From a virus: a DNA stretch of 39,023 nt. Each line of letters opens with the position of its first letter. Within the stretch, counting starts at the first letter, position 1. The stretch is from the IMG/VR virus record IMGVR_UViG_3300025138_005971, positions 1 to 39,023 of that record, one strand, 5' to 3'. Below, piece by piece: positions 16,863-30,009 of this stretch. The notes below the pieces were generated by a model, which made no database searches, was not told the origin of the DNA, and saw only the letters and a list, made by a program, of their open reading frames with translations. The position numbers and the translations under genes were made by a program.

Positions 16863-17083
16863 GTAAAACACAAACTAAAAGACTTGGCGGTATATTGACA
16901 GTCATGTTTGATGATGAAATACCAAGTGATTTATTAACAAATCTAATTACAGAAGGTTATATTAAAGTTAATGGTCAAAAGTATGATCTCACTGATAAAG
17001 GGAAAGATGAAAAAAATCGTCTTTGTACTTTAGCAGGTCTTAATATTATGTATTCTTCTGAGAAGAAAGAAACTTCAGAATAA
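16853..17083 (+). CDS. Small winged-helix-like protein of unknown function
   Basis: A 76-residue protein, last gene of the rightward left-hand block. The pattern 'SDLLTNLITEGYIKVNGQKYDLTDKGKDEKNRL' looks like the recognition helix and wing of a winged-helix domain, where 'LTdKGk' is common at the turn into the last helix. There is no dimerisation domain. It could be a small DNA-binding protein or simply unknown. Its 3' end converges on the leftward early genes, and I see no clear terminator hairpin between them. Confidence 0.5.
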   Translation: MALSKTQTKRLGGILTVMFDDEIPSDLLTNLITEGYIKVNGQKYDLTDKGKDEKNRLCTLAGLNIMYSSEKKETSE

Positions 17084-17347: not shown

Positions 17348-17486
17348 TTTTATCTCCCTGTTGATATTCTTCAATATCTTCTGCTTCAATAGTATCAATT
17401 ATTAAATGTTTTTGCATCCATTCATTATTTACACCATTTTCTGTAAGTTTTTGTTTTAGTAGCTTTTCCAGTTCTTTTTTATTCAT
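17340..17486 (-). CDS. Small unknown early protein (48 aa)
   Basis: The ATG ending at 17486 begins MNKKELEKLLKQKLTENGVN, an amphipathic helix rich in Lys and Glu, and the protein ends in an acidic stretch (EAEDIEEYQQGDKNE). Start and stop overlap the neighbours by 8 bases each, as in the rest of this operon. No family was recognised. The C-terminal 'DKNE' also ends the next upstream protein (KEDKNE), which reflects the two overlapping start regions rather than clear homology. Confidence 0.5.
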   Translation of the reverse strand: MNKKELEKLLKQKLTENGVNNEWMQKHLIIDTIEAEDIEEYQQGDKNE

Positions 17487-17673
17487 TTTTATCCTCTTTA
17501 GTTTTTGTATACTCAATCCATTTTGCAAAAATATGGAATGATTCTTTCTTTGATATGCCGCAATTTTCTCTTAACCATCTTGGAGTTTCAAACATATTAA
17601 TAGTTCCCATTTCTTGAATTTCATCTATTAATAAAAATAATTCATTAATAAATTTGGGTGCTTCGTGGCTCAT
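17479..17673 (-). CDS. Small unknown early protein (64 aa)
   Basis: Its ATG ends at 17673 and overlaps the upstream stop (TAATG). The product is helical: MSHEAPKFINELFLLIDEIQ, then 'GTINMFETPRWLRENCGISKKESFHIFAKWIEYTK'. The pattern around 'RWLRENCGISKKESFHIF' could be a helix-turn-helix, but it is too short to name. No function is assigned. Confidence 0.55.
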   Translation of the reverse strand: MSHEAPKFINELFLLIDEIQEMGTINMFETPRWLRENCGISKKESFHIFAKWIEYTKTKEDKNE

Positions 17674-18068
17674 TAATGTTTAACAATATCATCAAGTGGA
17701 ATAAATTCCATCATAGGCTCTTCAAAAAAACCTTCATCTTTCCACTCAACTATTTCTCTTAGTTCGCCAATATCTCTATCAAAAGATAATGTATCACCAT
17801 GATGGTCGCTTGTAGCTATGATAGCTATTCCTGCATAACCTCTGCTTTCACCTGCTTTACTTATAAAAGAAAAATATCTGTTATGGTCAATTAATAACCC
17901 TTCATCATCAACATACATAATCACATTGTCTCCTAGCCTTACAACATCAAACCTATCGCATTTCATTATTTCAGTAAATAAATTTGGATTTGTATTGTTA
18001 TCAATTGTTTCATATCGCAATTCTTGTTTGAAAGGGTCTATCACAGCAACCTCAATTGATTTATACAT
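17673..18068 (-). CDS. DUF3846-like protein
   Basis: A 131-residue protein. The ATG ending at 18068 was chosen because AAGGAG lies eight bases upstream; a longer frame would run into the repressor-like gene. Sequence 'VRLGDNVIMYVDDEGLLID', then 'GIAIIATSDHHGDTLSFDRDIGEL' resembles DUF3846-type phage/mobile-element proteins, which have a conserved 'v-hDeeGl' and a 'G-a-i--' strand. Function of that family is not established. It overlaps both neighbours by a few bases. Confidence 0.5.
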   Translation of the reverse strand: MYKSIEVAVIDPFKQELRYETIDNNTNPNLFTEIMKCDRFDVVRLGDNVIMYVDDEGLLIDHNRYFSFISKAGESRGYAGIAIIATSDHHGDTLSFDRDIGELREIVEWKDEGFFEEPMMEFIPLDDIVKH

Positions 18069-18267
18069 TTTGTAACTCCTTACTTTCTTTTGCATATTGA
18101 TTAATTAACATTGCTATTCTTGGATTTATACTGGCATGTCCATTTTCAAATCTAGCAATCATGCTTCTATTTGGTATACCATTGCTAAAATAGCCAAGAT
18201 GTTCGGCTAAATCACCTTGTGTGATACCTAATTCCTTTCTTAATTCATATAATTCTAGTCCACTCAT
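18061..18267 (-). CDS. Small Cro/CI-like helix-turn-helix regulator
   Basis: A 68-residue protein starting at an ATG with AAGGAG seven bases upstream. It contains a complete HTH_3 (lambda repressor-like) domain: 'ELRKELGITQGDLAEHLGY' as helices 1-2, 'SRSMIARFENGHASI'-type recognition helix region (written MIARFENGHASINPRIAML in this protein), then helix 5. There is no extra domain, so it is Cro-sized. It lies within the leftward early operon and may act on the palindromic operators at 20447 and 29905, although nothing here proves the pairing. The ribosome site overlaps one of the GAGATC sites. Confidence 0.8.
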   Translation of the reverse strand: MSGLELYELRKELGITQGDLAEHLGYFSNGIPNRSMIARFENGHASINPRIAMLINQYAKESKELQNV

Positions 18268-18464
18268 TTGATCTCCTTATAATCAATATTTAATCTATCT
18301 AATACAGTATGATGCCATTTCATTAAAAATTCATGACACATGCCCTCTGTCCACTCTGTAGGGTTTAATTTGCTATCATTCCATTTGTTATACCAAATTA
18401 AAAATGAATGCCAAAATTTTGGGTTGGTTTCAAAGCATGTCTTTGTTTTATATTTTTCAAACAT
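18264..18464 (-). CDS. Small unknown early protein (66 aa)
   Basis: ATG ending at 18464 with AAAGGAG upstream; the stop overlaps the regulator start (ATGA). The protein is unusually rich in Trp and aromatic residues (FWHSFLIWYNKWNDSK, EWTEGMCHEFLMKWHHTVLD), suggesting a compact helical fold. No family was recognised. Confidence 0.6.
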   Translation of the reverse strand: MFEKYKTKTCFETNPKFWHSFLIWYNKWNDSKLNPTEWTEGMCHEFLMKWHHTVLDRLNIDYKEIK

Positions 18465-18843
18465 TTAAACTCCTTTTTTTTAAAAAATCTTTTGCATATG
18501 TAATTCTACTTCCAAGAATACCTTCATCATTGTATTGATTGCCTATATCAATTCGCACTTGTCTCAAATTTGAAAAGGGGTATTCCTGTACTACAAAAGT
18601 TTTAAATATTAAATGTGCTATCTCCCATGCTCTTAAATCACCAGCAGCACCAACATAAAAAGAATCATGGCTCGTTTCTATTTGTACATATTTATTTACC
18701 CAATATGTATCAATTTTTCCACGAACTGGTCTCAAAGGAACATGGTTATCTTTTAACCATTTTGTTAATTTTGTGTAAGACATTTGATTGTGAGACCGCA
18801 ACTCTATTTTCCAAACATTTTTCATTCGCATTTCTTCAATCAT
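18457..18843 (-). CDS. Unknown early protein (128 aa)
   Basis: Two adjacent ATG codons (ending at 18846 and 18843) follow AGGAG by four and seven bases; I chose the second for spacing. The protein has 'YTKLTKWLKDNHVPLRPVRG' (helical, basic) and then a beta-rich part 'TYWVNKYVQIETSHDSFYVG' with 'FSNLRQVRIDIGNQYNDEG'. The stop overlaps the next start. No function is assigned. Confidence 0.6.
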   Translation of the reverse strand: MIEEMRMKNVWKIELRSHNQMSYTKLTKWLKDNHVPLRPVRGKIDTYWVNKYVQIETSHDSFYVGAAGDLRAWEIAHLIFKTFVVQEYPFSNLRQVRIDIGNQYNDEGILGSRITYAKDFLKKRSLNV

Positions 18844-19399
18844 CATTTTCTCCTGTGCTGACAAAATTCCAACCTTTTTTATGTCCAAGTTCTTCTGCTA
18901 GAATTCTTTTAATTTCTTCAACATCATCTACTAGCATTCTGTTTTCTTCTCTACATTCAGCAATTGATAAAACAGCATTATCTATTTTTGCCCTGTAATC
19001 ATTATGATTGATGGTGCTAACATTTAAAGCTTCTGTTTTTGACTTTGGCAACATGCCATTTTTAAGTAATTTTTTGGATTCATATTTTTCTTGAATTGAA
19101 TTTAACATTTCTGCATGCTGTTGATTAGATATTATTTTTGTACACCAAACTCTAAATATAAAACCATCATTTTTAGTTTTACCAGTGTAATGTTTTCTAG
19201 CCTGTATTTCTTTTTTAAGTTTATGCCTACAAAATCTTCTTACTTTTTCAACATCGCCATATGTTTTAACAATAAATGAATCACCAACTTGCATTTTATC
19301 TAAAGCATCTGTGGTATCTTTATCAAATTCTTGATAATCATTGCCATATTTATTAGGCATAAATATATTTTGTTCAAGTTTAATATTTAACTGTTTCAT
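18836..19399 (-). CDS. Unknown early protein with 'GDSF ... RVW' domain (187 aa)
   Basis: The first half carries 'MQVGDSFIVKTYGDVEKVRR' (residues 36-55) and 'GFIFRVWCTK' (about 79-88). This frame of 'hG-SF-V ... R ... hRVW-TK' is shared with the 92-residue protein at 19929-20207, so the two look like paralogues. Small phage proteins of this type are common but have no known function; the charge pattern would fit nucleic-acid binding. The second half is a helical, partly coiled extension (AKIDNAVLSIAECREENRML). The start overlaps the stop of the 52-residue gene upstream (TAATG). Confidence 0.6.
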   Translation of the reverse strand: MKQLNIKLEQNIFMPNKYGNDYQEFDKDTTDALDKMQVGDSFIVKTYGDVEKVRRFCRHKLKKEIQARKHYTGKTKNDGFIFRVWCTKIISNQQHAEMLNSIQEKYESKKLLKNGMLPKSKTEALNVSTINHNDYRAKIDNAVLSIAECREENRMLVDDVEEIKRILAEELGHKKGWNFVSTGENDD

Positions 19400-19557
19400 T
19401 AATGTATCTCCTTACCATACTTAACTGCATGAGTTAGTCTTTCCCAATCACAACTGCTTATCTTTTTTTTAATTAAATCAAGATTCATATTTCGTAAATC
19501 TAAATTATATTTTTCTGACAGTTGTTCTATAACTGTAAATAAATTTTTTCTCCTCAT
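19399..19557 (-). CDS. Small unknown early protein (52 aa)
   Basis: On the reverse strand an ATG ending at 19557 opens a 52-codon frame (MRRKNLFTVIEQLSEKYNLD, then LIKKKISSCDWERLTHAVKY) that closes with TAA sharing a base with the next ATG. GGAG lies about five bases before the start. It also overlaps the upstream stop by 4 bases. The tight coupling on both sides and sensible helical composition make it a convincing gene that fills an otherwise empty 150-base gap. Function is unknown. Confidence 0.65.
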   Translation of the reverse strand: MRRKNLFTVIEQLSEKYNLDLRNMNLDLIKKKISSCDWERLTHAVKYGKEIH

Positions 19558-19742
19558 AGCATTTCTCCAGTTTTTTTATCTATAGCTGCTACAAAACCAT
19601 AATGATCTCTAAGTATCCAAAAATTTCTATATTCAGAACTTTCAGATTCTATAGGGTGGCTGTATGAAAAACCTTTATCTGAAAGATTGGTTTTGTATTG
19701 ATAGTCAGCCATTGCAAATGTTGCTGCTTTATTATTTGACAT
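19554..19742 (-). CDS. Small unknown early protein (62 aa)
   Basis: Start taken at the ATG ending at 19742 (MSNNKAATFAMADYQYKTNL), which has GGAGAG upstream; a longer frame would overlap the previous gene unreasonably. The C-terminal half, 'FWILRDHYGFVAAIDKKTGEML', looks like a beta hairpin. No family was recognised. Confidence 0.5.
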   Translation of the reverse strand: MSNNKAATFAMADYQYKTNLSDKGFSYSHPIESESSEYRNFWILRDHYGFVAAIDKKTGEML

Positions 19743-19932
19743 TATTACACTCTCCGCTAATTTCAAAGTCATACCATTGATATAACTCTTCTTTTATATC
19801 TGTATAACTTGCACCAAAAAGATTAGTTAGTTTTTTATCGGCTTTTTCATATCCATATTCTTTAACAAAATCAATCATATTTAGTCGCATACATGAAAGT
19901 GAAACAGTTTTTTCTACTTGTTTATTGTTCAT
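19732..19932 (-). CDS. Small unknown early protein (66 aa)
   Basis: Start taken at the second ATG (ending 19932, MNNKQVEKTVSLSCMRLN) because GGAG lies six bases before it; the first in-frame codon would sit inside the upstream gene. The rest, 'MIDFVKEYGYEKADKKLTNLFG', is helical and acidic. No function is assigned. Confidence 0.5.
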   Translation of the reverse strand: MNNKQVEKTVSLSCMRLNMIDFVKEYGYEKADKKLTNLFGASYTDIKEELYQWYDFEISGECNNVK

Positions 19933-20207
19933 TTGGTTCTCCAAACTCTAATTGTATTTACTGTGCAAGGGTCGCTTCTAGTAGCAAACACAATTGGTTC
20001 ACCACTATGAACATCGCACATATTTTTATTTTTATGAAACATAATGCAATTTCGTACATTAATAATTTCTTGCTCACCACATACTTGAAAGCTCTCACCT
20101 ATTTGTAAATTGGTAATAACATCATCATATTTAGCAACTTTTGGATTTCTTTTTTTTGCCCAACCGCTAGAAGGTAATGGTATATCCTTGTCTATTTTAA
20201 TATCCAT
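19929..20207 (-). CDS. Small protein with 'GESF ... RVWRTK' domain, paralogue of 18836-19399
   Basis: A 92-residue protein with a Pro/Lys-rich start (IPLPSSGWAKKRNPK), then 'LQIGESFQV' and 'VFATRSDPCTVNTIRVWRTK' at the very end. The spacing between the 'GESF' strand and the terminal 'RVWRTK' matches the first half of the 187-residue protein nearby. Many phages carry one or more such small proteins in early operons, without known function. The ATG ends at 20207 and overlaps the upstream stop by one base. Confidence 0.6.
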   Translation of the reverse strand: MDIKIDKDIPLPSSGWAKKRNPKVAKYDDVITNLQIGESFQVCGEQEIINVRNCIMFHKNKNMCDVHSGEPIVFATRSDPCTVNTIRVWRTK

Positions 20208-20392
20208 TAAGATACTCCTAGTATTAATCTTTCAGTAAGTCTACCAAAAGGACTTTCTGCTAATTTATTTATATAACATCTATTGTCAAATTTCTTTCTT
20301 TGTTTTTGTGTTATTTTATTAGCGATTTCTTTTGCTTGTTCATCATCTTCCGCCCAAACAAACATTTCTACTTTTAATGTATATCTTTGCAT
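20207..20392 (-). CDS. First gene of leftward early operon, unknown (61 aa)
   Basis: The ATG ending at 20392 (MQRYTLKVEMFVWAEDDEQA) has AAAGGAG at ideal spacing; upstream in-frame codons would lie in the promoter leader. The protein looks like a ferredoxin-like small domain: strand (YTLKVEMFVWAEDD), helix (EQAKEIANKITQ), strand, helix. It is the first gene after the promoter with operator at 20438-20465, so it should be expressed strongly when repression is lifted. Confidence 0.65.
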   Translation of the reverse strand: MQRYTLKVEMFVWAEDDEQAKEIANKITQKQRKKFDNRCYINKLAESPFGRLTERLILGVS

Positions 20393-20437
20393 ATTTTCTC
20401 CTTTCAAATTATTAACATTATTTACATTCATACATAG

Positions 20438-20465
20438 AGTATACATTGTTTACATAAATAAACAA
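20438..20465 (-). promoter_or_regulatory. Leftward early promoter overlapped by palindromic operator
   Basis: On the reverse strand TTGTTT (20465-20460) and TATACT (20443-20438) are separated by 16 bases and form a sigma-70-like promoter, with transcription expected near 20431. Bases 20447-20464 form a perfect 6+6 inverted repeat, TGTTTA-CATAAA-TAAACA, covering most of the spacer and the -35 box. Binding there would block RNA polymerase. Nearly the same 18-base palindrome occurs at 29905-29922 over another leftward promoter, which is strong support for a shared operator. Confidence 0.7.
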
Positions 20466-20493
20466 CCCATAATGTACAAATATATTATTTTTT

Positions 20494-20844
20494 TTAGAAA
20501 GGTAATTCATCATTACTGTCTTCCAGTTCTGATGTTGTTCCTTCCCATAATTCTTGTGCGTATTTTTTTCCAAAATCAGATTTCATACCATAGTTTTCAA
20601 ACAATGCTTTTTCAGAACCAAATTTAGAATGTAATAAGTGGTGGTGGTGTAAACACAAAGGAATTGCATTTCGGTCGTCAGCTTTCATAGACATACCTCT
20701 TGTACCAGTCCAAGGTTTTAATAAATGATGTGCTTGTACTATTCTGTGATGTGATATAAAACCTGCCTTACAAATTGTGCAAGGCAAGGTTCTTACATAT
20801 GCGAGATGTTTTTGATCTCTAAAAGGGTGCTTTCGTTTCTTCAT
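20494..20844 (-). CDS. HNH endonuclease-like protein (Ref/DUF968-type)
   Basis: A 116-residue protein. 'LPCTICKAGF' supplies the first CxxC; 'QAHHLLKPWTGTRGMSMKADDRNAIPLC' carries HH and the D-D-N-A-x-P-L-C motif; 'LHHHHLLHSKFG' supplies the final zinc and catalytic His. This order is the HNH layout of P1 Ref and DUF968-like recombination nucleases ('aHH ... gmg-K-dD--hhPLC--HH---H'). It is encoded with an exonuclease and annealing-like protein, which fits a recombination or replication role. Overlaps the upstream gene by 26 bases. Confidence 0.75.
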   Translation of the reverse strand: MKKRKHPFRDQKHLAYVRTLPCTICKAGFISHHRIVQAHHLLKPWTGTRGMSMKADDRNAIPLCLHHHHLLHSKFGSEKALFENYGMKSDFGKKYAQELWEGTTSELEDSNDELPF

Positions 20845-21172
20845 CTAAAACTGGCATGAATGAACAACTTAAAAACTCATTGCCACTATCATGACCTATT
20901 TTGTTCCATGCACCAAACTTATAAGTCATTTCATCAAAATAAACACGACCACTAACATCGGGACTTTTTGGTGATTTTTTTTCACTTTCATTATGATGGT
21001 AAACAAGACCTGCACTTATCATAAGTTCATATTTTTCTTGTCCTTTATCATTTTCACTTTTTATAAGCACACCATATCTTTTAACTCCATTTATCATAAA
21101 GTTACCACGCTTAATTACATCTGACTTGCTTTCATTAAACAAAGCACCAGTTAAATTATTATCATATTCCAT
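20819..21172 (-). CDS. DUF736 / single-strand-binding-like protein
   Basis: A 117-residue protein beginning 'MEYDNNLTGALFNESKSDVI', then an OB-like region 'INGVKRYGVLIKSEND' and 'GRVYFDEMTYKFGAWNKIG' with 'NEFLSCSF'. The opening 'YDN--tGaLF-n--K' and the late 'aWnK-----feylS-sf' are typical of DUF736-like phage proteins often found next to recombination genes and suspected to bind single-stranded DNA. The insertion with 'EKKSPKSPDVSG' is unusual. Biochemical role is not shown. Confidence 0.55.
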   Translation of the reverse strand: MEYDNNLTGALFNESKSDVIKRGNFMINGVKRYGVLIKSENDKGQEKYELMISAGLVYHHNESEKKSPKSPDVSGRVYFDEMTYKFGAWNKIGHDSGNEFLSCSFMPVLDEETKAPF

Positions 21173-21176
21173 AGAT

Positions 21177-21437
21177 TTACTCCTTAATTATTAATCTATA
21201 TTTCCAACCATTACCATTCCAAAGTCTTTTCTTAATTACAATTTCATCTAGCGATGGCAAATCATATTTCACTCTAGCATAGTCTTTTCTTAAATTTCTA
21301 ATAGCTGCACTGATTGTTGGCTCGCCATAGAATTTACCTGTTTTTTCTTTTATGACACTTTGTAACTCCCAAAATGTCCACCATTTACCATTCCTCATGC
21401 AAACAAATACATAATCATCTAAACAACTAGGCTTCAT
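21177..21437 (-). CDS. Winged-helix-like small protein (86 aa)
   Basis: The protein reads 'DYVFVCMRNGKWWTFWELQSVIKEKTGKFYGEPTISAAIRNLRKDYARV' in parts: a first helix, 'KWWTFWELQSVI', then 'GEPTISAAIRNLRKDY', which looks like the recognition helix of a winged helix, and a wing ending 'GNGWKYRLI'. This pattern, with 'sis-aiR-LR' and a terminal 'yrl', is common in phage proteins that sense or bind DNA. Exact role unknown. It overlaps the upstream annealing-like gene by 11 bases. Confidence 0.55.
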   Translation of the reverse strand: MKPSCLDDYVFVCMRNGKWWTFWELQSVIKEKTGKFYGEPTISAAIRNLRKDYARVKYDLPSLDEIVIKKRLWNGNGWKYRLIIKE

Positions 21438-22107
21438 TATAAATTTCTAACAATTTATCATATGCTTCTTTTGTGCTGTTAGTTGATGCAATTTGTGCTT
21501 TGATAATAGTTTCTTTATTTAAAGTAAAAATTCTTTTGCATTCATCACTTTTTGGGTCAGCTAAAAATGTTCGCAAATGATGCAAGTATTTTTCTTCATC
21601 ATCAGTATTTATAACAACTGCTTTATTATCACTATGTATTTTATACTTACCCTTGCTCTTTACATCTTTAAATGCAGTAACTACTTTATCTGTTTCTTTT
21701 TTTGGTGCTTCGGCTTTATTATTAATTGCATTATCAACTTCAAAAGAACTAGCATATTCACCGCCACTTAAACCACAAGCTGCTAATGCTCTACCTATTG
21801 CACTAGTACAACAATTTTCTAAAGCTGATGTTTTGTTAACCATGCCCTCACCACGAAATTCTTCTGCATAGTCGCTGCCTAATACATGCCATTTAGCATC
21901 GTTAAACACGCTTACAGTTGCCTTAACAACAACTCTTTCAAGGTCATGGATAATTACTTTTGTTGTAATTCTAGCTGTATCTCCATATGCTTTTCTAAAA
22001 ATTTCTACTCTAGTTGCTACTTGGGTGTAATATTTACCTTTAATATTTACCTTATCTGATTTAGACAAATTTGCTATTTCATTAATTGCTTCATTCAATT
22101 TATTCAT
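21427..22107 (-). CDS. Single-strand annealing-like recombination protein (ERF/DUF1071-like)
   Basis: Start taken at the ATG ending at 22107 (MNKLNEAINEIANLSK), with GGAG six bases upstream and coupled to the exonuclease stop (TAATG); 226 residues. It has a beta core 'KGKYYTQVATRVEIFRKAYG', 'ITTKVIIHDLERVVVKATVSV' and then 'KTSALENCCTSAIGRALAACG' (residues about 113-133), the 'ETSAiGRALA' signature of phage annealing-type proteins. The C-terminal part is helical and charged. The pairing with a PD-(D/E)XK exonuclease directly upstream is the usual phage recombination pair, in which the annealing protein binds the single strands made by the nuclease. Confidence 0.7.
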   Translation of the reverse strand: MNKLNEAINEIANLSKSDKVNIKGKYYTQVATRVEIFRKAYGDTARITTKVIIHDLERVVVKATVSVFNDAKWHVLGSDYAEEFRGEGMVNKTSALENCCTSAIGRALAACGLSGGEYASSFEVDNAINNKAEAPKKETDKVVTAFKDVKSKGKYKIHSDNKAVVINTDDEEKYLHHLRTFLADPKSDECKRIFTLNKETIIKAQIASTNSTKEAYDKLLEIYNEA

Positions 22108-22880
22108 TATATTCTCCATAATTTTTTTGCTGCTTCTTTTTCTGCATATGACCATTTCCAATCATCAAAGTTTGGAAAAAATAAATCAGCAACAACATTA
22201 ATATCACTACTATAAGAAAGAACATTCATCATATTATTTGCCGCTCTTTCAACTTCTTTTAAATGCATATCTACATTAGAGACTGGTGTTGTAACAATTT
22301 GTTGTGTTGTGGTTGTTACATGAACATAATCAATTATCGGTACACATTTTTCGGCAGCTGCATATATGGCAAGTTGTCTACAAGTTGTATCAAGCATTTT
22401 TTTCTGCAACCTGTTTACAGTTTTTATATCACGAACCACCCCTTCATATTGGAGATCAAGGTAACCGATTATAGGAATGGGTAACCAGTCAAACTCCAAT
22501 TTGATTTTTTTTTGCGTAGCTATAGGCTCACCTAAACTTCTAAAGTGAGGAATTGCTATATCTACATAAGTATTTATTGTGTCTCTTTCTTTGCTTATTT
22601 TACTTGCATCAAAAGGTATTTTTTCTTGTTGTGCTTCTTCTAATTTATTATCAAAAACTTCTAGTGCAAATTTTTGCAGTTTTTTTATAGATTCATTATT
22701 GTATATGCCTTTGCATATAGCATCATCAACAGCTATTCCACGCCACATAGCGGGAGAACCAAAAGAATCACGAAAACCACTAGTGTGCAAAATCCACCTA
22801 GCAGGATTAGTTATAAATTCATTTATAGAACTGGCACTAAGATAAGTTATACCATGTTGTTCAAAGGGATTATTGTTCAT
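22107..22880 (-). CDS. PD-(D/E)XK recombination exonuclease (RecB/Cas4-like)
   Basis: A 257-residue nuclease. Start at the ATG ending at 22880 (MNNNPFEQHGITYLSASSIN); the longer frame has only rare codons before it. 'SASSINEFITNPARWIL' and 'RGIAVDDAI' (48-56) are the N-terminal elements. Catalytic residues are Asp142 (IIGYLDLQ), Asp151 and Lys153 (VRDIKT), and the QxxxY motif is Gln169 to Tyr173 (RQLAIYA). No iron-sulfur cysteines are seen. It should resect double-stranded ends for the annealing protein encoded next. A TATAAT box at 22907-22902 (reverse) gives a very short leader. Confidence 0.82.
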   Translation of the reverse strand: MNNNPFEQHGITYLSASSINEFITNPARWILHTSGFRDSFGSPAMWRGIAVDDAICKGIYNNESIKKLQKFALEVFDNKLEEAQQEKIPFDASKISKERDTINTYVDIAIPHFRSLGEPIATQKKIKLEFDWLPIPIIGYLDLQYEGVVRDIKTVNRLQKKMLDTTCRQLAIYAAAEKCVPIIDYVHVTTTTQQIVTTPVSNVDMHLKEVERAANNMMNVLSYSSDINVVADLFFPNFDDWKWSYAEKEAAKKLWRI

Positions 22881-22931
22881 ATTATTCCAAATTATTATCA
22901 AATTATATTAGTGATGATAAGACAAAATGGG

Positions 22932-22966
22932 TGGATATGCAAGAATTATTCTGATAGAATTTACTT
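22932..22966 (+). promoter_or_regulatory. Repressor promoter with internal palindrome; likely leaderless
   Basis: TGGATA (22932-22937, 4 of 6 to consensus) and TAGAAT (22955-22960, 5 of 6) are separated by exactly 17 bases. Transcription should begin about 6-7 bases after the -10 box, at or next to the A of the ATG at 22967, and no ribosome site precedes the ATG, so the mRNA is probably leaderless as for lambda cI. The spacer holds a perfect palindrome AGAAT-T-ATTCT (22942-22952), a candidate self-regulation site. The facing leftward exonuclease promoter (TATAAT at 22902-22907) shares this 86-base gap. Confidence 0.45.
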
Positions 22967-23176
22967 ATGAAATTAGGTACATGGTTAAAAGATAATGGAC
23001 ACACTCACGAGTCTTTTATTTTATTGGCAAATAAAAATGGCGGAACATTTACAATACATGCATTAGCAAAATGGTGCAGAGGTGTTCGCATACCTAGAAA
23101 AGATGAAATGGAACAAATATATAAGATCTCCAATGGTCATGTTACACCTAATGATTTTTATAACTTGCAAGCCTAA
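22967..23176 (+). CDS. Small HTH repressor-like protein
   Basis: A 69-residue protein. 'MKLGTWLKDNGHTHESFILLANK' forms helices 1-2, 'GTFTIHALAKWCRGVRIPRKDEM' the turn and recognition helix, and 'EQIYKISNGHVTPNDFYNL' the last helix. 'W--G-R-P----m--I---sgG-VtPnDF' is the standard ending of Cro/YdaS-like phage regulators. It is divergent from the exonuclease and placed before the replication genes, the classical position of an immunity or switch regulator. It is too short to hold a cleavage domain, so control by RecA-type cleavage is unlikely. Confidence 0.8.
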   Translation: MKLGTWLKDNGHTHESFILLANKNGGTFTIHALAKWCRGVRIPRKDEMEQIYKISNGHVTPNDFYNLQA

Positions 23177-23200
23177 TTAATAAAAGGTACATTATGGGTT

Positions 23201-23554
23201 ATGAGTATAGAAGCCCTAGGATGGTGTAAAAAACAAAGTTGCAATACGCCAAGCACAAAATTAGTATTATTTATTTTATCTAACTATGCAGATGAACAAC
23301 ATAGCTGCTACCCAAGCGAAAAACATTTAGGAAAAATATGCGGCATATCTGATAGACAGGTTCGCAGATGTTTAACTTGGCTACAAGAAAATAATAAATT
23401 AAGAATACAACACAGAAAAGGAACCAGTAACAGGTATTTTTTAAGTGTGGACACCAATGTCCTAACACTTAGGACGCCTGCTACCGCCTATACTAAAGAC
23501 ATACAAAAGAATAAGAACAAAAAAATAAGGAGTAAAAATGAACTTGCAGGTTAA
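23201..23554 (+). CDS. HTH_36-type replication initiation-like protein
   Basis: A 117-residue protein. The ATG at 23201 was chosen because it starts the family sequence 'MSIEALGWCKKQSCNTPSTK'. It continues 'LVLFILSNYADEQHSCYPSEKHLGKICGISDRQVRRCLTWLQE', a helix-turn-helix of the HTH_36 type used by phage O-like replication proteins to bind the origin. The C terminus is Lys/Asn-rich. Overlap of 17 bases with the primase-helicase gene fits a role in loading it. Origin repeats (iterons) were not found inside this gene. Confidence 0.75.
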   Translation: MSIEALGWCKKQSCNTPSTKLVLFILSNYADEQHSCYPSEKHLGKICGISDRQVRRCLTWLQENNKLRIQHRKGTSNRYFLSVDTNVLTLRTPATAYTKDIQKNKNKKIRSKNELAG

Positions 23555-25235
23555 ATTAAAAAACGAACATAATATTGATGCACACAGTCTTGATATTGGT
23601 TCACACAAAGTAAAATGTCCACAGTGTCAACCACCACATAATCCAAAAGATAGACCTTTATCATTAACTATAGAAAATGATACTGCTTTATGGTTGTGTC
23701 ATCATTGTAATTTTAGTGGCTCATTGCGGTTAAATGGTTACAAATCTAAACCAGTACAAAAAGTTGTACAAAAAGTTGTAAATTATGATGCAAGTGCAAA
23801 TGACTTTTTAGATAACTATTTTAGTAAGAGATCAATTAGTAGAGAAACATATCAGGCTTTTAACATTTTTTGCAAAGATGGTAAGTGGATTGGTTTTCCA
23901 TACAATGGTTTTAATAATAGATGCGATAATATTAAATTTAGAACTATTGATAAACAATTTAAACAAACACCAAAAGCTAAAAAAAGTTTGTACAACTATC
24001 ACCATGTTAAAGATGCACATGCTGTTATATTTGTGGAAGGTGAAATTGATGTACTTAGTTTATATGAAGTTGGTTTTAAAAATGTAACAACATTGCCCGA
24101 TGGTGCTCCACCAACAGTTGCATACAGAGAAAGCGATAAAAGATTTAGTTGTTTACAAACACACCCATTAAAAGCAAAAAAAATTATTCTGTTTGTAGAC
24201 TCCGATGGTGCAGGAGAAAATTTAAACAAAGAACTAGTTCATAGATATGGCAAAAAACTATGCTGGGTAGTACAAACACCTAAAGACTGTAAAGATGCAA
24301 ATGATGTTCTAGTTAAACATGGTGCAGCTACATTAAAAAATCTAGTAGATAGAGCTAGACCTTTGCCTGTAGATGGTTTGTATTCAGTAAATAGTTATAC
24401 CAAAGATGTTATTGATCTCTATAATGGTAATTATGATAAGCCATTAGAAATTGGTTATCCAAGTCTAGATAAATTATATAAAGTACAAAAAGGCACATTC
24501 CATGTTTGGACTGGCATACCTAATCATGGAAAAAGCACCTTTCTTGACCAAGTTTTAGTTAGAATAGCTAAACAACATGATTGGAGATTTGCCATGTTTT
24601 CTCCCGAGCATTCTACAAAAATGCATATTAGAAGATTATTACAAATTGTTGCAGAGAAACCATTTGATAAAGGATTTTCTACAAGAATGGATACTAGTGA
24701 ACTACATGCTTCATTAGAATGGATACATGAGCATTTTTATTTTATAGAAACAAGAGAACACATACCTAACATAGAAAAGATTTTAGATATTGCATCACAG
24801 TCTTGTGCAAAGTTTGGAATTAATGGTGTTGTAATAGACCCATTTAATGAAGTATCAGCAATTAGGAGAGGCAATCAAAGAGAAGATGAGCATATAAGAG
24901 ATTTTATATCTAGTTGTAAAAAGTTTGCAAGAAACCACGATGCTACAGTTTGGGTTGTGGCACACCCAACTAAAATGCAAAAAGATAACAGCGGCGGTTA
25001 CTCACCGCCAACAGCATATGATATTGCAGGTGCAAGTCATTGGCACAATCAAAGCGATGCTGTAGTTACTGTTCATAGAGATTTTGATGATGATACTGTG
25101 TCAATTATCACTCGCAAAATAAGAGAACAGGGATTGTATGGAAGCATAGGAGAAGCAAAATTTGAGTACGACCAAGCTAAAAGAATTTTTAAAGAACCAA
25201 CATTTAATTCTGATGTAAACTGGAATGAATTATGA
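23538..25235 (+). CDS. Primase-helicase (T7 gp4-like Toprim plus RecA-like helicase)
   Basis: A 565-residue replication enzyme, started at an ATG with AAGGAG. Residues 20-66 are a zinc-binding primase domain (Cys27, Cys30, Cys54, Cys57; 'CPQC' and 'CHHC'). The Toprim domain follows with 'VIFVEGEID' (163-171, Glu168) and 'ILFVDSDGAGEN' (217-228, Asp220 and Asp222). The helicase domain has Walker A 'GIPNHGKST' (326-334), Walker B 'VVIDP' (431-435), and 'VWVVAHPTKM' with a DnaB-like C terminus (ITRKIREQ). All three parts look intact. It unwinds DNA and lays primers, as in T7. Confidence 0.92.
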   Translation: MNLQVKLKNEHNIDAHSLDIGSHKVKCPQCQPPHNPKDRPLSLTIENDTALWLCHHCNFSGSLRLNGYKSKPVQKVVQKVVNYDASANDFLDNYFSKRSISRETYQAFNIFCKDGKWIGFPYNGFNNRCDNIKFRTIDKQFKQTPKAKKSLYNYHHVKDAHAVIFVEGEIDVLSLYEVGFKNVTTLPDGAPPTVAYRESDKRFSCLQTHPLKAKKIILFVDSDGAGENLNKELVHRYGKKLCWVVQTPKDCKDANDVLVKHGAATLKNLVDRARPLPVDGLYSVNSYTKDVIDLYNGNYDKPLEIGYPSLDKLYKVQKGTFHVWTGIPNHGKSTFLDQVLVRIAKQHDWRFAMFSPEHSTKMHIRRLLQIVAEKPFDKGFSTRMDTSELHASLEWIHEHFYFIETREHIPNIEKILDIASQSCAKFGINGVVIDPFNEVSAIRRGNQREDEHIRDFISSCKKFARNHDATVWVVAHPTKMQKDNSGGYSPPTAYDIAGASHWHNQSDAVVTVHRDFDDDTVSIITRKIREQGLYGSIGEAKFEYDQAKRIFKEPTFNSDVNWNEL

Positions 25236-25891
25236 TAGATGTAGAAAAAATTTATGACATGATTGCTGATGATTATGAAAATGATTATTCAGATGAAAGA
25301 GTTGGTAATTTAGTAGAAGCTGAAAATGCATTTATAAAAGAACTAATGCCATATAAAGGCAAGGGTAATTTAATTGATTGTGGATGTGGCACTGGTTTAT
25401 TACTTGATCTCATACAAATACATAAAAAAAATTATGTTGGTTTAGATATATCAAAAGGCATGTTAGATATAGCTGAAAAGAAAAATAAAGATTATTCATT
25501 TATCCACGAAGATGTTTTCACACATAAAAATAAATATGATTTTTGCATTTCTATGTTTGCAATTACAGATGTTTTTGGTACAAAAATGTTATCTAAGTCT
25601 GTAGAACTATTAAATAAAAATGGAATGTTTGTAGGAACATTTATAAACACAGATGGTCCTTATAAAAAGTTGCATTGTTTTGAAAAAAATGGAATTGATT
25701 TTAATCCTTTAACTTATACATATAGTGAAATTTGTAATGAACTGGTTAAAAATGGATTTGACTGGTATTATATTCTAGGAATAGCAAATATTAAAGATAG
25801 TGCAGATGTACAAACAATGACAAAAGAACTTTTAGATAAACGACACCTTTTAGCAAATGCTAAATATTATTTTGTAATGGCTCAAAAATGA
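25232..25891 (+). CDS. Class I SAM-dependent methyltransferase
   Basis: A 219-residue protein with the Rossmann-fold signature: motif I 'LIDCGCGTGLLLDLI' (about 47-61), acidic 'GLDIS' (motif II), 'HEDVF' and 'YDFCISMFAITDVF'. It is of the small-molecule or protein type (UbiE-like), because I see no DPPY or PCQ-type motif of DNA methyltransferases. The substrate is unknown. It is coupled to the primase-helicase (ATGA) and to the PAPS-reductase-like gene, so it may work with the latter in an unknown modification. Confidence 0.8.
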   Translation: MIDVEKIYDMIADDYENDYSDERVGNLVEAENAFIKELMPYKGKGNLIDCGCGTGLLLDLIQIHKKNYVGLDISKGMLDIAEKKNKDYSFIHEDVFTHKNKYDFCISMFAITDVFGTKMLSKSVELLNKNGMFVGTFINTDGPYKKLHCFEKNGIDFNPLTYTYSEICNELVKNGFDWYYILGIANIKDSADVQTMTKELLDKRHLLANAKYYFVMAQK

Positions 25892-27021
25892 AACTACATT
25901 TAAATATGAATGTTTTTGATGCTGCTTTAAATCGGCTACAAGAATTGTATGAACAAGACCATACTATTGTAATTTCACAAAGCGGCGGCAAAGACTCCAC
26001 AGTTTGTATGGAGTTAGCAATAATGGCAGCTGATGCTGCAGGAAAACTACCTATAAATGTTATACATCGTGATGAAGAAATTCTAATACCAAATACATAT
26101 GAGTATTTAGATAGAGTTGCAGCAAGACCTGAAGTGAACATGCATCATGTTTGGGCAGGACAACCAGTAGTAAATGTTTTTAATAGAAACAGTCCGTACT
26201 GGTGGATTTTTGATGAAACAATACCAAAAGAAGAATGGGTCAGACAACCGCCTGATTACGCTTATCAAATAGAAGAAAAAAATATTAATGCATTAGTAAC
26301 TAAAGAACGATTTCCTACAAAAGAAGGAAAAGATTTATTTGCTTGTATAGGATTGCGAGTACAAGAAAGTCCAAATAGAAGGATGGGTTTGTTTTCTAGT
26401 AAAGGTCATATTACAAAACCTAATGATAGAGGAACTAAATATGTGCGACCAATTTATGATTGGACAGATGGAGATGTTTGGAAAGCAATACAAGATTTTA
26501 AATGGGATTATAATCACGCTTATGATGTAATGGTTAAGCATGGGAGATCAAAAAATAAGCTAAGAATTGCACCACTGACAATGACTACAGCTGGAATACC
26601 CGACTTACAATTAATACAAAAAGCTTTTCCACAATTTTTTGATAAAGTCTGTCATAGATTAGATGGCATAAGAACAGTTACACAATTTGGTAAAATATCA
26701 TGTCAACCAACTAGAAAAACTGGCGAAACATGGGAGCAATGTTTTAGAAGAGAATGTATTGATGATGCACCCGCATGGATTGCTGAAAGAGCAGAGTTTG
26801 TTTATAAAAAACAATTAGAAGCACACATAAGAGCAAATGGAAATATACCATTCCCGCAAATAAATTCATTAAGAGCAAACCCTATAGGCTCGTATAAAAA
26901 ACTAGCAATGGCTTTATGGAATGGCGACCCTTTTGCATTAAAATGTAATATTTTAAAATATATGGAACCTGAAGAATTTAGGAAAGGTGCAGGATTTTGG
27001 GGTGGTAAGCCTACATTCTAA
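25888..27021 (+). CDS. PAPS-reductase-like (IbrA-type) protein
   Basis: A 377-residue ATP-pyrophosphatase-fold enzyme. The PP-loop 'SQSGGKDS' lies at 30-37 (Ser32, Gly33, Gly34, Lys35, Asp36, Ser37), followed by 'VIHRDEEILIPNTYEYLDR' and 'CIGLRVQESPNRR'. 'PIYDWTDGDVWKAIQDF' is the region that in PAPS-reductase relatives closes the active site. The long C terminus has Cys at 'CQPTRKTGETWEQCFRREC'. Relatives include IbrA and DndC-like proteins. It is followed by a small partner and then a ParB-like protein, recalling the IbrA-IbrB gene pair. The true substrate (sulfate transfer or adenylation of some target) is not known. Confidence 0.75.
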   Translation: MKLHLNMNVFDAALNRLQELYEQDHTIVISQSGGKDSTVCMELAIMAADAAGKLPINVIHRDEEILIPNTYEYLDRVAARPEVNMHHVWAGQPVVNVFNRNSPYWWIFDETIPKEEWVRQPPDYAYQIEEKNINALVTKERFPTKEGKDLFACIGLRVQESPNRRMGLFSSKGHITKPNDRGTKYVRPIYDWTDGDVWKAIQDFKWDYNHAYDVMVKHGRSKNKLRIAPLTMTTAGIPDLQLIQKAFPQFFDKVCHRLDGIRTVTQFGKISCQPTRKTGETWEQCFRRECIDDAPAWIAERAEFVYKKQLEAHIRANGNIPFPQINSLRANPIGSYKKLAMALWNGDPFALKCNILKYMEPEEFRKGAGFWGGKPTF

Positions 27022-27293
27022 TGTCAGATACAGACTGGAAAAGTCTAGAAGAGCATTGTGATTCTGTAAAATGGATTTGGGCAAAAACTTATGCAAAGAC
27101 AGCACCACATTGGTACATAAGATATAAAGAGCAGCCATATCTTTACGAAATTTTAAAACGCATGATAGAATTACATGGCGTAGAAGAAGAGTACACTAAT
27201 CATAATGGTAGAACTTATCCATGTGTTTATTTGTATTTAGGTAAATATAAATATTGGTATATGAATCCAGTAATAAATAAAGCGGAGAAATAG
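27021..27293 (+). CDS. Small partner protein between IbrA-like and ParB-like genes
   Basis: A 90-residue protein starting at the upstream stop (TAATG) and ending five bases before the ParB-like gene. It is strikingly aromatic (WIWAKTYAKTAPHWYIRYKE, then 'GRTYPCVYLYLGKYKYWYM') and ends in a beta-rich 'YxYLGKYKYW' segment. Small proteins of this kind accompany PAPS-reductase-like genes in phages. I do not recognise a domain with known function. A role as a third subunit of the modification complex is an inference from gene order alone. Confidence 0.6.
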   Translation: MSDTDWKSLEEHCDSVKWIWAKTYAKTAPHWYIRYKEQPYLYEILKRMIELHGVEEEYTNHNGRTYPCVYLYLGKYKYWYMNPVINKAEK

Positions 27294-27297
27294 TCAG

Positions 27298-28110
27298 ATG
27301 GCAAAATTTAAAGGTAAAGCACAGGTAGAAAAGAAAAATGCAGTTTTAAAGGCATTAGATGTTCAGTACATCACACATGATAAAATTGTTCCTAATACTT
27401 ATAATCCTAATAGACAATCAGAAGATGAATTTGAATTATTGAAAAGGTCAATGACTGAAGATGGATTTACTCAACCAATTGTTTGCGTAGAACATGAAAC
27501 AAAAGGCATGTATAGAATTGTAGATGGAGAACATAGATGGCGTTGTTCTAAAGAATTAGGATATGCAGAAATACCTATTGTAGTAACTCCTATGTCTATG
27601 GAGCAGGCTCGTATTGCAACATTAAGACATAATAGGGCTAGAGGGTCAGAAGATATTGAGCTCACAGCTAATGTCCTTAGAGATTTAGAATCACTTGGTG
27701 CTTTAGACTGGGCTCAAGATTCATTAATGATGGACGACCTTGAACTTCAAAGAATGTTAGAAGATATTCCTGCACCCGAAGCTATGGCAGGTGAAGAATG
27801 GAGTGGTGCATGGATACCATCAGATAATGATAGTGCAGAAGATGGAGTTGCAGGTGTTGAACATAAAACCAATGATGGAATAATGGTGAAATCATTGACA
27901 GTTGAGGCATTGAACAGACAAAGAGAAGTTGAAGCTATTGTAGCAAACGCTAAAACAGAAGAAGAAAGAAAAATGGCAGTCAAAGAAGCTAATTTTTATA
28001 GATTAAATTTAGTATTTAGTGGTGAAGAAGCAGATACAGTCAAAGAAGCATTAGGTGCAAATCCTGCTGAACAATTATTATCAATGTGTAATCAATTACT
28101 AGGTAATTAA
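27298..28110 (+). CDS. ParB-like (IbrB-type) nuclease-fold protein
   Basis: A 270-residue protein with an N-terminal ParB domain. 'YITHDKIVPNTYNPNRQSE' and 'LLKRSMTEDGFTQPIVC' precede the motif 'RIVDGEHRWR' (73-82), the 'GEHRWR' of ParB/Srx-fold ATPases. 'IPIVVTPMSMEQA' and a helical stretch (NRARGSEDIELTANVLRDLES) follow. The C-terminal half is acidic. It lacks the partition HTH typical of plasmid ParB, so it is more like IbrB or the ParB of phage modification modules. The ATG has GGAG upstream. Confidence 0.82.
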   Translation: MAKFKGKAQVEKKNAVLKALDVQYITHDKIVPNTYNPNRQSEDEFELLKRSMTEDGFTQPIVCVEHETKGMYRIVDGEHRWRCSKELGYAEIPIVVTPMSMEQARIATLRHNRARGSEDIELTANVLRDLESLGALDWAQDSLMMDDLELQRMLEDIPAPEAMAGEEWSGAWIPSDNDSAEDGVAGVEHKTNDGIMVKSLTVEALNRQREVEAIVANAKTEEERKMAVKEANFYRLNLVFSGEEADTVKEALGANPAEQLLSMCNQLLGN

Positions 28111-28238
28111 TGTTTTTTTTAAGTTATGCATTTGCAGATAAATGGAGACCAATAGTCAATAAAACAACAAAAAAGACTAAAAAACATCAAAAACAACGCA
28201 CTGACAAGCCGCTGAAAGCAATATCTAAAGGTAAGTGA
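28110..28238 (+). CDS. Small, very basic protein (42 aa)
   Basis: An ATG shares one base with the stop of the ParB-like gene (TAATG at 28108-28112) and opens a 42-codon frame ending TGA at 28236-28238. The product begins MFFLSYAFADKWRPIV and continues almost entirely with Lys, Thr, Gln and Arg (KTTKKTKKHQKQRTDKPLK). It would be strongly positive, so it may bind nucleic acid. The tight stop-start coupling is the main evidence; no family is known. Confidence 0.5.
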   Translation: MFFLSYAFADKWRPIVNKTTKKTKKHQKQRTDKPLKAISKGK

Positions 28239-28279
28239 TACCCTAAGTATGGCTAAATATACAATTCAACACAACGCAA

Positions 28280-28314
28280 AAAGCCTTTCATAACTGGAGA
28301 TCATAAAAGGCTTT
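28280..28314. terminator. Two-way transcription terminator between convergent operons
   Basis: AAAGCCTTT (28280-28288) and AAAGGCTTT (28306-28314) form a 9-base-pair stem, which can extend two more pairs past a mismatch, leaving an 11-base loop. A-rich sequence lies on the left and TTT on the right, so either strand can give a hairpin followed by U residues. It lies in the only gap between the rightward 22.97-28.24 kb genes and the leftward amidoligase pair, exactly where a shared terminator is needed. One GAGATC site lies in the loop. Confidence 0.7.
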
Positions 28315-28318
28315 AGGT

Positions 28319-28801
28319 TTATATATTTGTCTGACTATATGAATCTTTTACTGCATACATTAATGTATCGGTATCAATACCAAAATCATCATAACCTTGT
28401 GCAATACCTTCCAAGTATCTGCTTGATGGTGGATACACATCTTTGCTATTCATTATGTAAACCATAACTTTATCAGTACCAAACTTTTCTTTTAGAGCGG
28501 GTATAGTCAAAACTTGTTTACGATATAAACTAGGATACCCTTCATATATATCTAACCTTTGCTCACAGGCATCTGTAATTTTCCATAATGCTAATGGCAC
28601 TGTCGCATCTTTAGCATGCTCTATGTCTGCAACACCTCTAAATTTAAGAGAGAAGCCATCAACAAAAACACTTCCAACTGGTTTTGCATATGGGCATCTT
28701 GAAGACATTTGCATTAAGTTCATATTGCTTCCATAAGCACCATACAAATATTGCACAGTCTTAGTAGGCTTGGTTTTAAATTTTAGAATATTTTTTTTCA
28801 T
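28319..28801 (-). CDS. Gamma-glutamylcyclotransferase (GGCT/AIG2-like)
   Basis: A 160-residue protein. 'YLYGAYGSNMNL' (18-29) is the GGCT substrate-binding 'Y-aYGSNm' motif. 'DGFSLKFRGVADIEHAKDATV' and 'ALWKITDACEQRLDIYEGYPSLYRK' (71-95) follow, with Glu87 in the position of the catalytic acid of the family. The terminal part carries the 'Y-----sR-Yl--i--G' pattern. Members release 5-oxoproline from gamma-glutamyl amines or peptides. It follows the amidoligase in one operon, so it probably trims or reverses amide bonds made by that enzyme. AGGAG precedes the ATG. Confidence 0.82.
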   Translation of the reverse strand: MKKNILKFKTKPTKTVQYLYGAYGSNMNLMQMSSRCPYAKPVGSVFVDGFSLKFRGVADIEHAKDATVPLALWKITDACEQRLDIYEGYPSLYRKQVLTIPALKEKFGTDKVMVYIMNSKDVYPPSSRYLEGIAQGYDDFGIDTDTLMYAVKDSYSQTNI

Positions 28802-28815
28802 AGTTTCTCCTTGTA

Positions 28816-29856
28816 TTAATTTAATTCTAATTCTCTTTCATGGTAAAAAGATTGCACTTTACTATCACAACCATCTAACCAACCACTGTCTGTTTCACCA
28901 GTATTTTCTGCAATAGGTCTGTTTAAGTTTGCATCGTCATAAAAAGATAAGATATCTCTATCTCTTAACAAATCAACTAACAAACATTTATCTATAGAAG
29001 ATTCTCTGCTTCCAGTATATAAACTATTTAATAAATGATTACTCATGTATGTATGATAAGAACCATCAGTTTTATTTATATTCCACTGGCTATCACCCCT
29101 GCTCCACTCCATAGTGAACCCTGCATTTTCAACTGCATTTCTAACTGTAGAGTAAACTCTGTTAGTTTTAGGTGACTTAGTAATTGCTGAAAGCTTTGTA
29201 CTTTTTTCTACAAAAGCCATTAAGAAGCTAACCCAATTAATAATCTTTGCAAAATTAAGAGTACCGCTATGTTGTCTGAACTCCATAGTTCCATATCTAG
29301 TTAAACTTTGTAAATTAACTTTATAGTATCTACCTGCTGCATTAGCTAAACCTCTTTTACTTTTACTTCTAACATTTTTAATTCTGCTAGCAGTATTAGT
29401 AACACTAGAACACCATCTAGAATTATTACCCCTTCTGCTTCTAGGCATAATCATATCTATTTGGCTTTCATAGTCAGCATACCTTTCATATACAGTTTGT
29501 ATTTGTGCAACTGTGAGATCATTAACATCAACATGAACATGCAATCCACACTGCACATTAACGCTAATACCTTCTAAGTTATCTAGGGCATCTAGTATAA
29601 TTTCTAATTGCTTAGCACCCTCAACACCTTTAAGAATTGGACTAACGATTTCACCACCAGTTCCATCTAAAGAAGCATCTGTAACAATCTTCCAGTATGG
29701 TCTAGTAGTATGATGATACCCTTCAAAGTAACATTCTATACCATCAAGGTTATTAATGGTCTCTGCAACAGTTCTAGGTGTAACTCCTACAAACTCTAAC
29801 TCAACACCATAGGTCCTGTTAGTTAATGTAGGGTAGTTGTTATTTAAGTTATTCAA
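28816..29856 (-). CDS. Amidoligase-type (COOH-NH2 ligase) enzyme, TTG start
   Basis: A 346-residue protein. The start codon is TTG at 29856-29854, preceded by AAGGAG six bases upstream, and no ATG is near. Motifs of the glutamine-synthetase-like amidoligase family are in order: 'YGVELEFVG' (16-24), 'WKIVTDASLDGTGGEIVSP' (55-73), 'CGLHVHVDV' (103-111) and 'YGTMEFRQHSGTLN' (188-201). These enzymes join carboxylates to amines with ATP, giving peptide-like products. Phages often carry amidoligase next to GGCT-like enzymes, as here. The target, perhaps wall peptide or a host protein, is unknown. Confidence 0.85.
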   Translation of the reverse strand: MNNLNNNYPTLTNRTYGVELEFVGVTPRTVAETINNLDGIECYFEGYHHTTRPYWKIVTDASLDGTGGEIVSPILKGVEGAKQLEIILDALDNLEGISVNVQCGLHVHVDVNDLTVAQIQTVYERYADYESQIDMIMPRSRRGNNSRWCSSVTNTASRIKNVRSKSKRGLANAAGRYYKVNLQSLTRYGTMEFRQHSGTLNFAKIINWVSFLMAFVEKSTKLSAITKSPKTNRVYSTVRNAVENAGFTMEWSRGDSQWNINKTDGSYHTYMSNHLLNSLYTGSRESSIDKCLLVDLLRDRDILSFYDDANLNRPIAENTGETDSGWLDGCDSKVQSFYHERELELN

Positions 29857-29891
29857 TTTTTTCTCCTTATAATTATTTACTTAACATATGT

Positions 29892-29922
29892 ATTATCGGT
29901 GATTTGTTTATAAATGTAAACA
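29892..29922 (-). promoter_or_regulatory. Leftward promoter for amidoligase operon with second copy of operator
   Basis: On the reverse strand TTTACA (29920-29915) and GATAAT (29897-29892) are exactly 17 bases apart. Bases 29905-29922 form the palindrome TGTTTA-TAAATG-TAAACA, overlapping the -35 box. It matches the 18-base palindrome at 20447-20464 at 16 of 18 positions when one is read on the opposite strand (differences are only at the two central positions). Two promoters with a common operator are best explained by one phage repressor controlling both leftward operons. Confidence 0.7.
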
Positions 29923-30009
29923 TTAATACTGAAAATAATGCCCTTTTTGTGCTTTTTTCTTTACTTTTAGGGTTTTTGACTACAGAATAACGATAATTAG
30001 AGATAAATT

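Follow-up and report, generated by a model that had tools for sequence, protein, structure and literature searches.

A class II activator position is known from the lambda promoter PRM, from which cI is transcribed as a leaderless mRNA. The Aca repressors (Aca1 to Aca10) are small HTH proteins, 60 to 79 aa in most families, and they act at an inverted repeat in the core promoter of their own operon, with changeable small genes alongside (PMC9410906). The locus described here shares features with both systems. The analyzed window, a stretch of 39,023 bases that makes up a whole virus record of an uncultured marine phage (33% GC), contains two leftward promoters 9.5 kb apart, P1 and the amidoligase promoter P2. 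Each carries two palindromes, operators A and B, for which the small proteins HTH68 and HTH69, respectively, are the candidate binders.

Operator A occurs at two leftward promoters

The palindrome TGTTTA-N6-TAAACA was found exactly twice in the window, at 20447 to 20464 (TGTTTACATAAATAAACA) and at 29905 to 29922 (TGTTTATAAATGTAAACA), against 0.03 copies expected from shuffles. A weight-matrix scan of the window revealed no near-copy above background. The first-pass annotation had reported the same positions and no third copy, both correctly, and had given 16 of 18 bases as equal. That count applies after one copy is reverse-complemented, while the same-strand reading gives 14/18. It had also assigned a good −35/−10 pair to each site. 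This holds for P2 (29892 to 29920, minus strand; TTTACA-17-GATAAT, 10/12), where operator A overlaps the −35 box and the spacer. At P1 (20438 to 20465, minus strand; spacer, 16), operator A lies between the two boxes. The −10 box TATACT (20443 to 20438) is good and mostly reads TATAAT in relatives, but the −35 box TTGTTT (20465 to 20460) is weak (3/6) and fails the consensus of the promoter tool.

Judged by gene order, P1 precedes an operon of small, fast-changing genes (17479 to 20394, minus strand), which follow one another leftward from 20394, overlapping or separated by small gaps. The gene for the 68-residue protein HTH68 lies inside this run, as expected from its earlier placement in a controlled operon. 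The first gene probably starts with the ATG at 20394, behind AAAGGAG; a start at 20446 is disfavored because this position is upstream of the −10 box. In a Pfam search of the operon genes, only DUF3846 scored above the cut-off and no known anti-CRISPR was recognized. From locus L013 outward, relatives keep 1 to 3 of the 11 genes, HTH68 always among them. The stretch from 17479 to 20394 thus shows rapid gene turnover between relatives and is a possible anti-defence locus.

The P2 unit begins with an amidoligase gene (PF12224; 28816 to 29856, minus strand), followed by a gene for a GGACT/gamma-glutamyl cyclotransferase-like protein (28319 to 28801, minus strand), both recognized by profile search. 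A leftward block at 20494 to 22901, divergent from HTH69, ends just before P1. It encodes an SSB-like protein (weak match), an HNH-like protein, and two PHROG families without function, and it resembles a recombination block. Genes for a PAPS-reductase-like protein (25888 to 27021) and a ParB-like protein (27298 to 28110) are located between the primase gene and the amidoligase pair.

Operator A is conserved at both promoters in relatives

Megablast of window positions 17000 to 39000 against 50,697 deposited phages gave no close match. Relatives were gathered by a scan for the primase of the window, which yielded 79 loci. An exact-18-mer scan of viral contigs returned 43 stretches, approximately one-quarter of which carry several window genes, while the remainder look like chance. 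The first-pass annotation had suggested looking for the 18-base site upstream of the same genes in relatives. Operator A was present at the same two syntenic promoters in relatives with primases approximately 70 to 93% identical and loci reaching both places, except that the P1 copies are imperfect in L006/L026 and L009. Since the arms are constant and the six core bases drift among relatives (CATAAA, CAAAAA, ACATAG, CATTTG, and others), as expected for an operator, we regard A as an operator. Extra copies lie over further promoters in L007, L008, L010, L015, L018, L029, and L087; the additional exact sites at L010:481 and L087:4054 belong to promoters outside the two conserved places. We conclude that the paired palindromes are real and conserved and that they had been read correctly in outline.

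Most relatives with primases approximately 50 to 60% identical have other arms in place of TGTTT, and within a genome both promoters tend to share the new site. The arm variants are TAGTT-N8-AACTA, GGGTT-N8-AACCC, and AGGTT-N8-AACGT, some of the distant sites being imperfect or tandem. TAGTT-N8-AACTA occurs twice in L021, at P1 and the amidoligase promoter (0.065 expected), and GTTGCATWTATAAC occurs twice in L023, at the same two promoters (0 expected). In other clades, P1 carries either GGGTTGTATTTATAACCC or GTTG-N6-TAAC pairs in tandem, and the amidoligase promoter carries related sites. G010 contains five TAGTT-N8-AACTA sites, compared to 0 for the reversed pattern; its A-type sites include HTH68's own promoter, P1, and the amidoligase promoter. 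Two further A-type sites in G010 (L211:3954 and L211:4631) precede the genes for a 55-aa ribbon-helix-helix-looking protein and the terminase small subunit. As the terminase small subunit gene has one of these sites close upstream, the A regulon may reach packaging genes in G010.

HTH68 is the likely binder of operator A

HTH68 (18061 to 18267, minus strand) is a 68-aa XRE/HTH_3 protein, which profile, relatives, and structure model point to as the putative binder of A. It matches PF01381 (HTH_3) with 30.8 bits (cut-off, 23), and its AlphaFold model (pLDDT, 95) shows a confident XRE, lambda-repressor-like fold. Foldseek retrieved C proteins, P22 c2, and the lambda repressor at E values of 0.05 to 0.11 and a probability of about 1. 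In the model, helix 2 is followed by a beta-hairpin and then by the recognition helix. No HTH68 homologue was found among the 50,697 deposited phage records, and a pattern search of GTDB species genomes gave 28 matches, none of them a relative.

HTH68 was present in every relative with a tallied or readable P1 operon. An A-type site is located directly upstream of its gene in L023, L151/L152, L165/L166, and L169, and a looser one in L153, L162, L168, and L172. The records of L024, L028, L032, and L033 contain no HTH68 and their loci no A-type site; as L024 and L033 appear to belong to a single lineage, these are about three independent absences. Since HTH68 is retained while the operon turns over and has A-type sites upstream of its own gene in several relatives, and since records without HTH68 show no A-type site, it is likely the A binder and autorepressor of the P1 operon.

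The residue following LGY in HTH68, which varies and is borne by the recognition helix, was compared with the operator class. F, Y, and L occur with TGTTT, E with TAGTT, and K with AGGTT, while M and T each occur with more than one class. The HTH regions of L156 (LGYV, with a GGGTT site) and L169 (LGYE, with a TAGTT-type site) are identical except for this residue. On the primase tree, with A classes assigned by eye, the operator class changes only 3 times, and a test of independent pairs gave no significance. For these reasons the covariation was rejected as proof of the pairing and was kept as support.

Operator B is very probably bound by HTH69

Missed by the first-pass annotation, a second operator, the 13-bp palindrome GYMC-W5-GKRC (motif B), is located beside A at both promoters. 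At P1 it spans 20465 to 20477 (ACCCATAATGTAC), where it abuts operator A as well as the −35 box on its upstream side; at P2 it spans 29940 to 29952 (GCCCTTTTTGTGC), 17 bp from operator A. A strong copy separates the HTH69 stop codon from the O-like gene at 23201 (23187 to 23199; GTACATTATGGGT). The copy upstream of HTH69 (22920 to 22932; AGACAAAATGGGT) is weaker, and the corresponding copies in relatives are stronger. In the window, a weight-matrix scan placed three B sites above background. Syntenic relatives have B at the HTH69 positions.

HTH69 (22967 to 23176, plus strand) is a 69-aa helical protein without a match in Pfam, PHROG, NCBIfam, or PDB sequences. Its predicted fold may be lambda-repressor-like, with weak matches to TP901-1 CI and DdrO. 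The B half-site varies with helix 3 of this protein: IHAL occurs with GTAC, YHAL with GCCC, KGA mostly with ACCC, QGC with ATCC, and PQGT with TTCC, as read from the tables. Because B is found at the HTH69 gene and its half-site varies with helix 3, HTH69 very probably binds operator B. P1 and P2 would then be two-input promoters, each with one predicted site per HTH protein.

The putative HTH69 promoter is TGGATA-17-TAGAAT with a TG extension. Within 22932 to 22969, the extended −10 element (TG-A-TAGAAT) ends 6 bases before the HTH69 ATG and no Shine-Dalgarno sequence is present; most relatives are alike. The HTH69 transcript is probably leaderless, like that of lambda cI from PRM. The distance from the B center to the −10 box is 28 to 30 at P1, 29 at the putative HTH69 promoter, and 39 to 41 or 49 to 51, depending on the clade, at P2. 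B thus lies on one helix face at all three promoters, approximately 41 bp upstream of the predicted start at P1 and the HTH69 promoter and one or two helical turns further at P2. Since this spacing is similar to that of lambda CI at PRM and the helix face is the same, HTH69 may act as an activator. Repression by contact with the −35 region is equally allowed, and B at P2 could instead belong to the terminase genes, which run rightward.

Alternative explanations

A palindrome could recur by chance in AT-rich DNA, and the window is only 33% GC. However, the count of two far exceeds the expectation, and both positions are kept in relatives despite diverging flanks; this reading is already contradicted and almost certainly wrong. 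A host transcription factor site borrowed by the phage would be in line with the overlap of A with sigma-70-like promoters. Yet related phage clades have different arms, which change jointly at both promoters, and A sites track the presence of HTH68, which makes a host factor very unlikely.

The first-pass annotation had expected one repressor, either HTH68 or HTH69, at both A sites. Conservation, joint site change, position, and co-occurrence support HTH68 in this role, while HTH69 fits motif B; one repressor for all sites was rejected, as motif B follows HTH69. We considered the converse pairing, in which A is the target of HTH69 or another phage protein and HTH68 has a different target. It would be compatible with the NRS at the start of the HTH68 recognition helix, which is invariant across operator classes though A differs between clades, and with the presence of HTH69 in most of these genomes. 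Position and co-occurrence disfavor HTH69 as the A binder: B lies at HTH69's own gene in syntenic relatives and varies with helix 3, several lineages have an A-type site immediately before the HTH68 gene, and records that keep HTH69 without HTH68 show no A site. We hold the converse pairing to be improbable. HTH68, acting at A, could also serve a temperate phage as its immunity repressor, the amidoligase/GGACT unit being controlled in lysogeny. The lambda-like order of an HTH gene, an O-like gene, and primase/helicase with a divergent leftward block speaks for this, as does the XRE fold of HTH68. A lysogeny switch is nevertheless not favored, because 12 records, several of them 42 to 54 kb long, yielded neither a tyrosine nor a serine integrase, although all may be fragments. 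Furthermore, HTH68 and HTH69 are single HTH domains of 68 to 69 aa, without the C-terminal peptidase/oligomerisation domain of the lambda CI type, and the GTDB pattern search gave no HTH68 homologue. Such an immunity role has a low probability in our view.

A model of two-input regulation

The sites, their conservation, their joint variation, and their positions were observed, and from them we infer a model for protein-site pairing, repression, activation, and timing. An HTH68 dimer would bind operator A (TGTTTA-N6-TAAACA). From its position between the −35 and −10 boxes or on top of them, it would block RNA polymerase at P1 and turn off the hypervariable early operon; with its gene inside this operon, negative feedback would result. 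At P2, HTH68 would block the amidoligase/GGACT pair. HTH69 would bind B at its own gene, at the junction with the O-like gene, and at P1 and P2. Taken as a whole, the model with HTH68 on A, HTH69 on B, and two inputs at both promoters appears quite probable to us.

A more far-reaching reading, which we consider rather unlikely in its entirety, sees in the P1 operon a site from which a large group of uncultured marine phages deploys anti-defence genes. The operon would fire as soon as the phage enters, and HTH68 would close it down. Amidoligase and GGACT would together be a long-standing member of the same anti-defence or host-takeover regulon, and HTH69 would be a CI-like activator at both promoters.

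The analysis provides two clear operator motifs, with a candidate protein for each, in a phage group whose HTH68 has no homologue among the deposited records. HTH68 and operator A could be used to fish for genes of early host takeover or anti-defence, and protein-DNA specificity can be tested directly on the natural operator variants. The regulatory link to amidoligase/GGACT has survived large divergence and hints at when this enzyme pair is used. Among the papers found to name phage, amidoligase, and gamma-glutamyl cyclotransferase, none has a title or abstract on regulation.

Comparison with known systems

HTH68 resembles the C proteins of restriction-modification systems in its XRE fold, its Foldseek matches (including C.EcoT38IS and C.BclI), and its putative autoregulation via operators at its own promoter. 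In contrast to those systems, no restriction-modification pair was recognized in the P1 operon, and the operator differs.

HTH69 is reminiscent of lambda CI/Cro and of class II activation at PRM. Its gene adjoins an O-like replication gene, and B is centered approximately 41 bp upstream of a predicted start with a weak −35 box, as is CI at OR2/PRM. Unlike the shared operators of CI and Cro, two unrelated operator motifs are present here for two proteins; moreover, HTH68 and HTH69 are single-domain proteins, and the 12 records showed no integrase.

The Aca systems differ from this locus in three respects: no known anti-CRISPR was recognized in the P1 operon by the Pfam search, a beta-hairpin precedes the recognition helix of HTH68, and HTH68 would also act at the distant amidoligase promoter, with the operator of a second regulator adjoining A. 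We do not claim that HTH68 is an Aca, because no anti-CRISPR was recognized and we infer its repression. Yet it is a small HTH protein (68 aa) encoded in the operon that it would repress, P1 has a conserved inverted repeat within its core promoter, fast-changing small genes lie beside HTH68, and Foldseek lists Aca2 and Aca10 among its weak XRE matches. By analogy, it is reasonable to propose that HTH68 works like an Aca.
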